From Polymorphum gilvum SL003B-26A1 (GTDB taxonomy: Bacteria; Pseudomonadota; Alphaproteobacteria; Rhizobiales; Stappiaceae), in NCBI RefSeq assembly GCF_000192745.1, contig NC_015259.1, forward strand, positions 2,619,001 to 2,683,000: a stretch of 64,000 nucleotides of DNA, read 5' to 3'. The stretch's first letter is position 1; the number at the start of each line of letters is the position of its first letter. Of the stretch, positions 50,074 to 55,727 are shown one piece after another. The notes beneath the pieces were generated by a model that had not been told where the DNA came from, did not search any database, and was given only the letters and a program-made list of their open reading frames with translations. The translations under genes were made by a program, and so were the position numbers.

Positions 50074-50490
50074 CTATATCAGCGACATGACGAACAGGTA
50101 GAGCAGGATGAACAGCGGCGGCACGCCGAGATAGGCGTCGCCGAACAGGAACAGCTTGAGGAAGAAGAACAGGAAGGCGCCGTAGAGCGAGACGGCGAAG
50201 GGCAGCAGGAAGCCCGGCGTGATCGGCGCGACCAGGGCCAGCAGCGGGTCGGTCAGCTTGCGCAGCACCACGAAGAACGTGATGTTGCGGTCCGCTCCGA
50301 CGACGAACTCCAGCACCCCGCGCGAGAACAGGAAGGCGGCCAGCGCGGTCAGCGCATAGGTGCCGCCGAGATAGACCGCCACCGTGCCGGGCGCACCGCC
50401 CAGGATGAAGGTCACGACCGCAAGCAGGTAGGTCGCGGCAAGAAGGAGGAGGCCGCTGAGGGCAGACGCCTGGTGCATCGTTGGATCCAT
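50074..50490 (-). CDS. Uncharacterised membrane protein
   Basis: 138 residues with about four hydrophobic segments (9-30, 38-60, 78-96, 112-136). No motif I recognise beyond 'FVVLRKLTDPLLALVAPITPGF', which resembles YggT-like proteins, so it may belong near that group. Start uncertain between two in-frame ATGs (50490, 50478). It follows the symporter gene on the same strand after a terminator, so it is probably transcribed separately or by read-through. Confidence 0.6.
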   Translation of the reverse strand: MDPTMHQASALSGLLLLAATYLLAVVTFILGGAPGTVAVYLGGTYALTALAAFLFSRGVLEFVVGADRNITFFVVLRKLTDPLLALVAPITPGFLLPFAVSLYGAFLFFFLKLFLFGDAYLGVPPLFILLYLFVMSLI

Positions 50491-52421: not shown

Positions 52422-52688
52422 TCAGTCCTCGGCCACGCCGAATTCCTCGTCGATCGCGTTCTGCCGGTGCGAGAACCAGAAGATCAGGATCACGAAGATG
52501 ATGAGCGAGCCCTGCGCGGCCATGTAGAAGCCGAGCGGGAAGCCCAGGATGACGACGTTGTTCAACGCCGAAACGAAAAAGTGGATGAAGAAGCTGAAGA
52601 TCGCCCAGACCGCGAGCGTGACCCACATGAGGTTCCGCGTCTTGGTCCAGTGCGCCTCTGCCACTTCGGGTGGCAATTTGTCAGTCAA
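52422..52688 (-). CDS. DUF4212 small subunit of the sodium symporter
   Basis: 88 residues, two membrane helices (about 20-42 and 50-72), 'NLMWVTLAVWAIFSFFIHF' and 'LGFPLGFYMAAQGSLI' typical of the small protein always found before VC2705-type symporters. First gene of the operon, 256 bases from the divergent regulatory-like operon. Confidence 0.9.
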   Translation of the reverse strand: MTDKLPPEVAEAHWTKTRNLMWVTLAVWAIFSFFIHFFVSALNNVVILGFPLGFYMAAQGSLIIFVILIFWFSHRQNAIDEEFGVAED

Positions 52689-52789
52689 GATCGATCCTCC
52701 CGATGCTGAATTCAGGGAGGCGAAAGCGCCCGCGACGCATCACCCTCCCATTCCCCCGAACAGCAAACCATGCTCATGCTGCAACACGG

Positions 52790-52806
52790 AAAAACGGGCC
52801 GTTTTT
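52790..52806. promoter_or_regulatory. Perfect palindrome in the symporter promoter region
   Basis: AAAAACGG-G-CCGTTTTT, exact 8-base arms. It lies 102 bases upstream of the small-subunit start. It ends in T-runs on both strands, so it could be an operator or a bidirectional attenuator. Confidence 0.5.
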
Positions 52807-52882
52807 GCAGGTGCGAGATTCATGGATACTGCTTCGAAGGGATACTTGCGCAGCGGGAATATTCTGTCAAATGTAGACAAGG

Positions 52883-52899
52883 GTCTTTATCCTAAAGAC
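52883..52899. promoter_or_regulatory. Palindrome before the exonuclease-nucleotidyltransferase operon
   Basis: GTCTTTA-TCC-TAAAGAC, exact 7-base arms, 45 bases before the TTG start at 52945. Operator-like; no regulator gene is adjacent. Confidence 0.5.
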
Positions 52900-52944
52900 T
52901 AATTTCGAATTCCGGGGACCAAACCCCGACCGGGAGGCTGTTTC

Positions 52945-53571
52945 TTGCTCGACCTGATTGGAACGCTGCTGCCGAAACGGCGCACGTCGGACTGGCCGTC
53001 GGCCGTGGAGGCAATCCGCGCCGGCGCCGCCTTCCTGGCGCAGGGCGCCAGCTATTCGTACCTGCGCGCCCGCACCCTGCTCGCCGGCCCGAAGCTGTTT
53101 CAGGACCCCGATTTCGGCTTTGCGTTGCAGATCTGCAAGTGGGAGGCCTTCGCCATCGCCGTGCAGGACCTGATCCTGATCCTGGAGGCGGACCTGCGCC
53201 CGGCGCTGCCCGCCGATCCGGCGGCCCGCGCCCGCGGCCTTGCCGCGCTCTACCGCGAGGTGCTGGCCAGCGAGACAGTGCCCGAGCATCGCGCCGACAC
53301 GGGTTGGGACGACGTCATCACCGCCTTCGACGAGCGGCTGGCCGTCTACATGGACAAGCCGCCGCTGAAGCCGGATGCGATCTCCATCGCCACCGCACTG
53401 GCCATCCTGGAGCACGCCCCGATCGAGGACAGCGTGCGCGAGGCCGACAAGATGATGGTGGTCAACAACGTCGCCTTCCGCTTCATCGACTACCAGGCGG
53501 CGCTGCGCAAGCGGATCGACCTCGACGCCTTCGCCCGCGACCTCACGAAGCGGATGGAGGGTGAGCGGTGA
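52945..53571 (+). CDS. Uncharacterised helical protein linked to the symporter
   Basis: 208 residues, predicted mostly helical, soluble. TTG start at 52945, seven bases after gggagg; no better start exists. 'AIRAGAAFLAQGASYSYLRARTLLAGPKLF' (key 'ASYSYLRART') and 'FRFIDYQAALRKRID' are the most conserved-looking parts. It overlaps the next gene (GTGA) and so is translated with the exonuclease-CBS-nucleotidyltransferase protein. I know this type only as a companion of acetate-type symporters; no function is established. Confidence 0.72.
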   Translation: MLDLIGTLLPKRRTSDWPSAVEAIRAGAAFLAQGASYSYLRARTLLAGPKLFQDPDFGFALQICKWEAFAIAVQDLILILEADLRPALPADPAARARGLAALYREVLASETVPEHRADTGWDDVITAFDERLAVYMDKPPLKPDAISIATALAILEHAPIEDSVREADKMMVVNNVAFRFIDYQAALRKRIDLDAFARDLTKRMEGER

Positions 53572-55727
53572 GGCGCGGGCCCGTCGCCGGCACCAGTGCC
53601 GCGGCGCCGCTGATCGCGCTTGACGTCGTCGTCCTCGACACCGAGACGACCGGCCTCGACGTGCGCCACGACCGCATCGTCCAGATCGGCGCGGTGCGCA
53701 TGCACGGCGCGGAGATCGACGAAACCGCGGTGTTCGAGGTCACCGTCGACCCGGGCATCCCGATTCCCGAGGTGGCGAGCCGCATCCACGGCCTCGCCGA
53801 CGCCGACGTCGCCGGCAAGCCCGGCCTGGCGGCGGTGATGCCGGATCTGGTCGCCTTCATCGGCGATGCAGTGGTCGTCGGCCATTCGATCCATTTCGAC
53901 ATGGCGGTGCTGCGCCACGAAGCGGAGCGCCACGGCTTCGTCTGGAAAGAGCCGCGCGCGCTCGACGTGGCGCTGATGGCCGCCGGGCTCGACCGGGAAC
54001 TGGTCGACACCTCGCTCGACAGCCTCGCCCTCGGCCTCGGGGTGACGATCACCGGCCGCCACACGGCGCTCGGCGACGCGCTTGCCACCGCCCGGGTCTA
54101 TGCCGCGCTGCAGCCGAAGCTGCTCGTCGGCGGCGTGCGCACGCTGGGCGAGACAGAAACGCTGTGCCGGCGCGCGACCGGGCTGATCGCCCGCCAGGAG
54201 GACGCCGGCTGGTTCGCCCGGCCGAGCGAGCGGCCCGACTTCGCCCTCGCCGTGCTGCGCACCGGCAGCCAGCGGGCGATCGACAGCTACCTCTACCGCC
54301 AGCGCCTCGTCGACGTTATGAGCAGCCCGCCGATCGCGATCGGTGCCGACGCGACCCTGCACGAGGCGACCCGGCTGATGGCCGCCCGCGGCATCGGCTG
54401 CGTGATCGTCGACGGCACCGGCGGCGCGCCGGGCATCGTGACCGAGCGCGACGTGCTGGCGGTGATGGCCGACAAGGGACCCGAGGCCAGCGGCGTGATC
54501 GTGCGCGACATCATGAGCGCACCGGTGATCACGGCCCCGGCCGACACCTATCTCTACCGTGCCCTCGGCCTGATGGCGCGGCGCAACCTGCGCTATCTCG
54601 GCGTCACCGACGCTGGCGGCCGGCTCGCCGGCATCTTCACCCTGCGCACCCTGCTGCGCGAGCGCGCGCTGGCCACGCTGACCGTCGGCGACGAGATCGC
54701 CGAGGCGACCCGCCCGCGCGAGCTGGCCCGGGTGCAGGCCGCCCTGCCCTCGCTCGCCAGCGGCCTGCTCGCCGACGGGCTCGACGCGCGCGCCGTCGCC
54801 GGCATCATCGCCGCCGAGGGCCGCGCCATGACCGCGCGCGCCGCCGAGATCGCGGAAGGCGAACTGGCCAGGGCCGGCTACGGCCCGCCGCCGGCCGACT
54901 ATGCCCTGCTGGTGCTCGGTTCGGGCGGGCGCGGCGAGAGCCTGCTTGCTCCCGACCAGGACAACGCCCTAATCATCGCCGGCGACTATGCCGGCGACCT
55001 CGATTCGCCCGAGGACTGGTTCGTGCGCTTCGCGACCCGCGTCAACGAGATCCTCGACCGCGCCGGCATCCCCTACTGCAAGGGCGGCGTCATGGCGAAG
55101 AACCGGGCCTGGCGCCGGACGCTGCCGGAATGGCTCGACCAGGTCCGTGGCTGGACGCACAAGCCGACGCCGCAGGCCCTGCTCAACGTCGACATCTTCT
55201 ACGACTTCACCCCGGCGCATGTGTCGTCCCAGGCCGGCGCCGAACTCGCCGAGACGCTGCGCACGGAGGCGGTCGAGATCGCCCGCGGCTCGCTGTCGAT
55301 GCTGCGCACCATGGGCGAAAGCGCCGGCTCGCACAGCCCGCCGCTCGGCATGTTCGGCCGCATCCGCAAGGACGACGCCGGCCGGGTCGACCTCAAGGGC
55401 GGCGGCCTGCTGCCGCTCGTCGCCGGCGCGCGGGCGATCGCGCTGCGCCACGGAGTGCTGGCGCTGGCAACGCCCGAGCGCATCCTGCAGGCGTCGCACA
55501 AGGCCGGCCGCTCGCAGGCCGATGCGGAGCTGCTCGCCGACATCCACGGCTTCCTGATGCGGCTGATCCTGACCCAGCAGATCGCCGACATCGAGGCCGG
55601 CGTGAAGCCGAGCAACCGGATCGACGTCAACCGGCTCGGCCACCAGGACCACGACCAGTTGCGCGACGCGCTCGGCCGCATCGAGCTGATCCGCGACATC
55701 CTGCGCGACCTGCTGCAGGGGATCTGA
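53568..55727 (+). CDS. DEDDh exonuclease - CBS pair - DUF294 nucleotidyltransferase fusion
   Basis: 719 residues. (a) 18-185: DnaQ-like exonuclease with all five active-site residues, D24, E26 ('DTETTG'), D111 ('HFD'), H165 and D170. (b) About 245-375: two CBS modules ('DVMSSPPIAIG', 'DIMSAPVITAPADTYLYRA'), which usually bind AMP, ATP or SAM. (c) About 390-570: DUF294 nucleotidyltransferase, GlnD-like, with 'GSGGRGES' (451-458) and DQD (463-465). (d) About 580-715: DUF294 C-terminal helices. GTG start overlapping the upstream gene. Divergent from the symporter, so a nucleotide-sensing controller of acetate uptake is the best guess. Confidence 0.85.
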   Translation: MRRGPVAGTSAAAPLIALDVVVLDTETTGLDVRHDRIVQIGAVRMHGAEIDETAVFEVTVDPGIPIPEVASRIHGLADADVAGKPGLAAVMPDLVAFIGDAVVVGHSIHFDMAVLRHEAERHGFVWKEPRALDVALMAAGLDRELVDTSLDSLALGLGVTITGRHTALGDALATARVYAALQPKLLVGGVRTLGETETLCRRATGLIARQEDAGWFARPSERPDFALAVLRTGSQRAIDSYLYRQRLVDVMSSPPIAIGADATLHEATRLMAARGIGCVIVDGTGGAPGIVTERDVLAVMADKGPEASGVIVRDIMSAPVITAPADTYLYRALGLMARRNLRYLGVTDAGGRLAGIFTLRTLLRERALATLTVGDEIAEATRPRELARVQAALPSLASGLLADGLDARAVAGIIAAEGRAMTARAAEIAEGELARAGYGPPPADYALLVLGSGGRGESLLAPDQDNALIIAGDYAGDLDSPEDWFVRFATRVNEILDRAGIPYCKGGVMAKNRAWRRTLPEWLDQVRGWTHKPTPQALLNVDIFYDFTPAHVSSQAGAELAETLRTEAVEIARGSLSMLRTMGESAGSHSPPLGMFGRIRKDDAGRVDLKGGGLLPLVAGARAIALRHGVLALATPERILQASHKAGRSQADAELLADIHGFLMRLILTQQIADIEAGVKPSNRIDVNRLGHQDHDQLRDALGRIELIRDILRDLLQGI

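Follow-up and report, generated by a model that had tools for sequence, protein, structure and literature searches.

The closest described relatives of the protein considered here are encoded in pseudomonads by two genes, one for a CBS-DUF294 protein and one for its exonuclease partner, in the regulon of the acetate two-component system CrbS/R (MxtR/ErdR): PP_0354 and PP_0353 in Pseudomonas putida, PFLU5625 and its partner in P. fluorescens, and PA3233 and PA3232 in P. aeruginosa. In P. putida, PP_0354 and PP_0353 (RNase_T) form one operon (PMC9927547), the regulator ErdR binds the PP_0354 promoter, and PP_0354 is induced by acetate (PMC8402216); growth on pyruvate is slower when either PP_0353 or actP-I is deleted (PMC9927547). 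PFLU5625, a protein with a cyclic nucleotide monophosphate (cNMP)-binding-like domain followed by CBS and DUF294 domains, is under CrbS/R control, and its mutant shows no phenotype (PMC5715377). The genes PA3232-PA3235 rise jointly on propionate (PMC9765439). Here we analyse a stretch of 64,000 nucleotides from Polymorphum gilvum SL003B-26A1 (NC_015259.1, 2,619,001-2,683,000; hereafter the window, to which all positions refer), in which the same core domains are joined in a single protein of 719 amino acids, encoded next to a sodium/solute symporter. This fusion probably tunes the uptake or use of organic acids.

The fusion gene (53568..55727, plus strand, GTG start) is delineated by Pfam matches, conserved catalytic residues and an AlphaFold2 model. 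The protein starts with a DEDDh exonuclease region (residues 1-205), within which RNase_T covers residues 21-178 (53628..54101, plus strand; Pfam E 2.8e-28), continues with a CBS pair (residues about 245-370, from 249 onward in Pfam; plus strand) and ends with a DUF294 nucleotidyltransferase (residues 392-536; 54741..55175, plus strand; E 3.3e-39) and a HEPN-like DUF294_C domain (residues 578-713, plus strand; E 1.1e-31). Immediately upstream lies a gene for an all-helical partner protein of 208 amino acids (52945..53571, plus strand, TTG start), whose TGA stop codon (53569-53571) overlaps the GTG start of the fusion gene (53568) by four bases, as GTGA. An initial annotation of the window had claimed one protein made of a DEDDh exonuclease, two CBS modules and DUF294, with the catalytic residues D24, E26, D111, H165 and D170 and the motifs GSGGRGES and DQD, translationally coupled to its neighbour; Pfam bears out the domains, all the catalytic residues and motifs are present, and translation of the window shows the GTGA overlap, frames and coordinates to be right. 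The four-base overlap recurs in the Pannonibacter, Stappia, Hoeflea and Roseococcus loci. A symporter of the VC_2705 family and its DUF4212 subunit are encoded divergently from both genes.

The fused form is conserved well beyond this organism. When 84,980 species genomes were scanned with a five-sequence alignment and the 80 best loci examined, the exonuclease and CBS-DUF294 were found in one frame in 79. Among these best loci, the nearest fusions come from Stappia and Pannonibacter (70-74% identity), and the distant ones (39-45% identity) from Hyphomicrobiales, Rhodospirillales and some gammaproteobacterial metagenome-assembled genomes. All five catalytic residues of the exonuclease are invariant in the 78 clean fusion homologues and lie in an RNase_T fold, which places the domain in the DEDDh superfamily. 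On the nucleotidyltransferase side, G451, S452 and the D463-x-D465 pair are likewise invariant (78/78), and a third acid, D542, located just past the DUF294 domain, is found in 76 of the 78. Because these positions are invariant or nearly so, both the exonuclease and the nucleotidyltransferase sites are under strong joint selection. The first CBS module retains the G-h-x-T-x-x-D nucleotide-binding motif, with I290, E293, R294 and D295 of its loop present in all 78 sequences and T292 in 75, the remainder having Ser. In one close relative (L185; G258:C1:4534012-4536149), the fusion gene is frameshifted near residue 505, by recent loss or sequencing error.

Outside the fused form, the two components are found as neighbours. 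In other proteobacteria, a separate exonuclease gene follows the CBS-DUF294 gene in 22 of the 30 sampled loci, and in some alphaproteobacteria (G366, G429, G441, G473, G343, G388, G402, G337 and G008) it lies directly upstream, in many cases so close that the two genes overlap or are separated by about 50 bp at most. A tree of 110 CBS-DUF294 sequences places the fusions together on one side of a modestly supported branch (84), and the pairs with the upstream exonuclease adjoin them. The simplest reading of this tree and these gene orders is that the fusions had one origin, a single in-frame joining of an exonuclease-then-CBS-DUF294 gene pair. The joining in one polypeptide argues, by the Rosetta-stone logic, that the two proteins act together. 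The pseudomonad form shares with the fusion its genomic company, an acetate/pyruvate symporter, and the kind of regulatory DNA site, but differs in several respects: there are two genes with the exonuclease downstream, the 208-residue partner is missing, an N-terminal cNMP-like domain is annotated where Pfam detects no cNMP-binding domain in the fusion, and ActP plus a DUF485 protein take the place of the VC_2705-type symporter with DUF4212. The fused, partner-bearing form is new, and the underlying module is known but biochemically an orphan. The initial annotation had credited the fusion with no established function; this stands for the biochemistry but not for the split form, with its known regulation and pyruvate growth phenotype. 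The same published regulation and phenotype (PMC8402216, PMC9927547, PMC5715377) sustain the proposed link to acetate metabolism as an acetate/pyruvate link.

Several loci show other arrangements of these domains. In four, from other alphaproteobacteria (L047:12413-14614, L050:4997-6427, L058:11986-14097 and L059:12494-14641), a larger protein carries the nearest homologue of the exonuclease (38-43% identity) as its C-terminal domain. The larger protein of L058 and L059 is membrane-anchored and sensor-like, and its gene lies close to CBS-DUF294 and adjoins one for a response regulator; this is a further case in which the exonuclease is joined to a signalling protein. Three genomes (G157, at L056:7369-11259, G185 and G069) have a back-to-back, divergent pair of CBS-DUF294 genes next to the symporter; in G157, a separate exonuclease gene comes after each member of the pair.

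The nucleotidyltransferase half is closest, in its predicted structure, to protein AMPylators. The AlphaFold2 model of the fusion has a predicted local distance difference test score (pLDDT) of 88.8 and a predicted template modelling score of 0.87. When residues 222-719 of this model were compared by VIA-align, the top three matches were protein adenylyltransferases: the N-terminal half of GlnE (Z 25.0, 337 aligned residues, 3.4 Å), the AMPylation domain of Legionella DrrA, which matches residues 379-719 (Z 24.3, 295 aligned, 3.5 Å), and the C-terminal half of GlnE (Z 23.7). The sequence has the features of the GlnE/GlnD type as well, namely G-S...D-x-D...third acid followed by a HEPN-like C-terminal domain, and a survey of HEPN domains groups DUF294_C with the C-terminal domains of GlnD and GlnE (PMC3710099). 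The nucleotide transfer by DUF294 suggested in the initial annotation hence gains support from the AMPylator-like predicted fold; catalysis itself we infer. The fusion would share with GlnE and GlnD the logic of a bifunctional regulatory enzyme, but its second site is a DEDDh exonuclease, where GlnE has a second nucleotidyltransferase and GlnD an HD domain, and it would sense through CBS modules, where GlnE and GlnD use ACT/PII. DrrA is an injected effector that acts on host Rab proteins and has neither CBS nor exonuclease domains.

The symporter is encoded on the minus strand by genes for a DUF4212 (TIGR03647) small subunit (52422..52688; 91 bits against a cut-off of 26.05) and a large subunit of the VC_2705 family (TIGR03648; 50549..52408; 682.9 bits against 320.75), so that the pair belongs to both NCBIfam families. 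The initial annotation had called it both VC2705-type and acetate-type; the former holds, and the latter is overstated because the models of the ActP acetate permease fall short of their cut-offs by far (TIGR02711, 156.6 bits against 1099; NF006903, PRK09395, 191 against 750). A search of the literature found no biochemical study of DUF4212 or VC2705. On the 3' side of the symporter, a 138-residue membrane protein (50074..50490, minus strand) absent from the initial annotation is a third member of the operon and probably takes part in transport as its third component; it keeps the same position in many relatives and matches YGGT in Pfam below threshold only. It occupies the same place in 36 of the 80 fusion loci, many of which are incomplete.

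The arrangement of fusion and symporter is not due to chance. A lack of co-occurrence with the symporter in other genomes had been named in advance as grounds for abandoning a functional link; instead, the linkage is strong in both genome samples examined, 249 genomes representing the phylum and 190 the alphaproteobacterial class. In the phylum sample, 66 of the 249 genomes encode the small subunit, and DUF294_C is also present in 53 of these, within 20 kb in 43. In the class sample, CBS-DUF294 is found in 27 of the 42 genomes with the small subunit vs 9 of the 148 others; the Fisher values in this sample are tiny, with the relatives not being independent. In the 52 fusion loci that exceed 12 kb, the region within about 6 kb contains the partner in 38, the small subunit in 36, the 138-residue membrane protein in 27, a CrbS-like kinase in 15 and a CrbR-like regulator in 10. 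In two Pseudorhizobium/Rhizobium loci (L069:132-2285 and L076:2072-4207), inspection by eye places the fusion near a methylmalonyl-CoA mutase-like gene, a possible hint of a connection with propionate.

The divergent promoter suggests a connection of the locus to CrbS/CrbR. An ACTU (CrbR)-like site, TTATCCTAAAGACTAAT (52887..52903, plus strand), lies 42 bases before the start codon of the partner and has the top score in the entire window (15.1) with a matrix built from published gammaproteobacterial sites. Across 35 non-redundant divergent promoters, scores of at least 10 are reached in 13 and of at least 13 in 10, compared with means of 1.5 (maximum 5) and 0.3 (maximum 2), respectively, for 60 column-permuted controls. 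The element common to the aligned divergent promoters of the relatives, TTATCC[TG]AAAGACTAAT, corresponds to this site, and several relatives carry a second site, such as CTAGACTAAAGTCTAAT, that resembles the published CrbR-dependent ACTU motif (compare TACGACTAAAGTCTAAA and CTAGACTTACGTCCAAT; PMC5715377). The genome also has a gene for a full-length SLC5-histidine kinase that shares 59% identity with the CrbS-like kinase beside the fusion in the L119 locus and, in convergent orientation to it, one for a LuxR-type regulator that shares 70% identity with the CrbR-like protein of L119; in several relatives, such homologues are encoded beside the fusion. The resemblance to the CrbS/CrbR acetate system extends from the site to both proteins, but the motif was defined in Gammaproteobacteria, and the P. 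gilvum site is a putative one. A genome-wide scan with the local element, allowing up to three mismatches, recovered only the site in this gap and so delineated no wider regulon.

The two perfect palindromes reported earlier for the 256-base gap, AAAAACGG-g-CCGTTTTT (52790..52806) and GTCTTTA-tcc-TAAAGAC (52883..52899), both exist, and dinucleotide shuffles of the gap rarely yield two such palindromes (P about 0.004), but neither is conserved in close relatives. As a regulatory element, the palindromes were therefore set aside in favour of the conserved ACTU-like site, within which the right half of the second palindrome is kept; the element shared by the relatives includes the same right arm.

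The partner protein is more closely linked with the symporter than it is with the fusion. Its AlphaFold2 model is all helical (pLDDT 93.5), and it has no match in Pfam, NCBIfam or the PDB sequences; Foldseek gave no hit to its fold at E<=0.001, and VIA-align only weak helical matches (best Z 6.1). The initial annotation had described it as helical, which holds. The family comprises at least 39 members; all of them have Q33, P159 and D168, and 38 of 39 have Y39. Among the 190 alphaproteobacterial genomes, 28 encode the partner and all 28 also the DUF4212 small subunit, compared with 14 of the 162 genomes without the partner; in the 28, the partner gene is usually divergent from that of the small subunit at a distance of 200-500 bp. 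A CBS-DUF294 gene is present in 24 of these 28. The other four genomes, all small and/or incomplete assemblies, keep the partner and the symporter with no DUF294 gene found, so that the partner belongs first to the symporter. The view of the partner as a dedicated mate of the fusion was rejected as the main link on these grounds and because, in several loci, the partner adjoins the symporter away from the fusion. Three assemblies of 1.4-2.2 Mb, all incomplete (L203, L204 and L205 in G464, G467 and G347, respectively), show the partner divergent from the DUF4212 subunit, with the DUF294 gene not found.

Our tentative preference, held with somewhat less than even confidence, is that a two-gene module of the CrbS/R regulon has been fused into an energy-sensing, GlnE-like protein nucleotidyltransferase and phosphodiesterase that controls the uptake or use of monocarboxylates. 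The fusion would be the single-polypeptide version of the exonuclease-then-CBS-DUF294 gene pair of the CrbS/CrbR acetate/pyruvate-utilisation regulon. Beyond this, we infer a chain of catalysis, CBS ligand, nucleotide, acceptor and reversal by the exonuclease domain: the CBS pair would read the adenine-nucleotide status, the GlnE-fold domain would transfer AMP (the most likely nucleotide) or possibly UMP from a nucleoside triphosphate to a protein that controls the uptake or early metabolism of short-chain monocarboxylates, and the DEDDh domain would hydrolyse a nucleotide phosphodiester, possibly the same bond that the transferase makes. The 208-residue helical protein is a candidate adaptor or acceptor. 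Nucleotide removal by the DEDDh domain is chemically conceivable because tyrosyl-AMP would present the P-O5' linkage and the free 3'-OH that such enzymes also meet at the terminal nucleotide of an oligomer, and the exonuclease domain is a conceivable eraser of a protein modification to that extent. Of the earlier proposals, a writer and a link to transport are thus strengthened by the present results, but an eraser, the symporter or the 208-residue protein as the target, and acetate as the substrate are not. The most specific version of this scheme, in which a protein AMPylase and a DEDDh de-AMPylase, with the energy charge read by CBS, reversibly modify the partner (candidate Tyr39) or a symporter subunit, appears quite unlikely.

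Several points weigh against the favoured reading. All DEDDh enzymes known to us act on nucleic acids, and we know of no precedent for one removing a nucleotide from a protein. A search of the literature found no enzymology of DUF294. The window site departs from ACTU at conserved columns (GAC for the GTC core), the matrix is built on six gammaproteobacterial sites only, and the acs promoter of this genome has a best upstream score of 7.3, which is not convincing. Furthermore, 11 of the 52 long fusion loci, about a fifth, have neither the partner nor the small subunit within 6 kb, and in P. putida, deletion of PP_0354, the CBS-DUF294 gene, has no phenotype on acetate or pyruvate (PMC9927547).

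Given that only the exonuclease deletion has a phenotype in P. putida, control at the RNA level is the strongest rival, even if rather unlikely. Under this scenario, the exonuclease would trim or degrade particular RNAs, such as transporter or central-carbon mRNAs, the nucleotidyltransferase would add or restore 3' nucleotides, and the CBS pair would serve as an adenine-nucleotide gate. The DnaQ/Pol III epsilon, RNase T and ERI exonucleases match the DEDDh domain very well (Z 21.8 and 1.5 Å for E. coli Pol III epsilon, 2gui, by VIA-align), and mRNA degradation has been proposed for PP_0353 (PMC9927547). Yet the nucleotidyltransferase half is structurally closest to protein AMPylators, no RNA-tailing enzyme appears among the 50 matches listed, which are mostly exonucleases, and Pfam detects no additional RNA-binding domain in the fusion.

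The same signalling enzyme might instead modify a target elsewhere, such as acetyl-CoA synthetase, pyruvate dehydrogenase or a PII-like protein, with the symporter merely co-regulated. The long loci lacking both the symporter subunit and the partner suggest as much, the pairs of P. putida and P. fluorescens share a regulon with actP but are located away from it, close to glcB (PMC9927547, PMC5715377), and the gammaproteobacterial fusion loci adjoin gatA/gatB-like genes. We nevertheless consider such a target fairly improbable, since the adjacency to DUF4212/SSS genes recurs far above the background, in many lineages and in several orientations.

A second-messenger system, in which the nucleotidyltransferase makes a small nucleotide signal that the exonuclease degrades, much as oligoribonuclease does linear dinucleotides, and the CBS modules sense, is improbable. 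It would accommodate the constant retention of both active sites, and CBS modules bind nucleotides, dinucleotides included; the architecture, however, is that of GlnE and DrrA, with a HEPN-like substrate-binding domain, and not that of a dinucleotide cyclase. Finally, a DNA-maintenance, proofreading-like exonuclease joined to an unrelated protein, with no role in transport, is very improbable despite the strong sequence match to DnaQ-like exonucleases: the domain scores far under the DnaQ equivalog cut-off (TIGR01406, 83.2 bits against 222.7), the exonuclease and CBS-DUF294 adjoin as separate genes in 22 of the 30 other proteobacterial loci, and a carbon-source phenotype is known for the exonuclease where it is encoded separately (PMC9927547).

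The CBS-DUF294/exonuclease pair occurs widely, and several model bacteria regulate it together with their use of acetate and pyruvate. The fused form indicates that both activities must act together, the AMPylator-like predicted fold leads to a specific hypothesis, and the partner, which strictly co-occurs with the DUF4212 symporter, is a specific candidate target, so that a long-standing orphan module becomes directly testable in one purified protein. Should the exonuclease indeed strip nucleotides from a protein, DEDDh enzymes would gain a role outside nucleic-acid processing, and reversible AMPylation of the partner or the symporter, if it occurs, would be a new post-translational switch for nutrient uptake as well as a new DEDDh chemistry.

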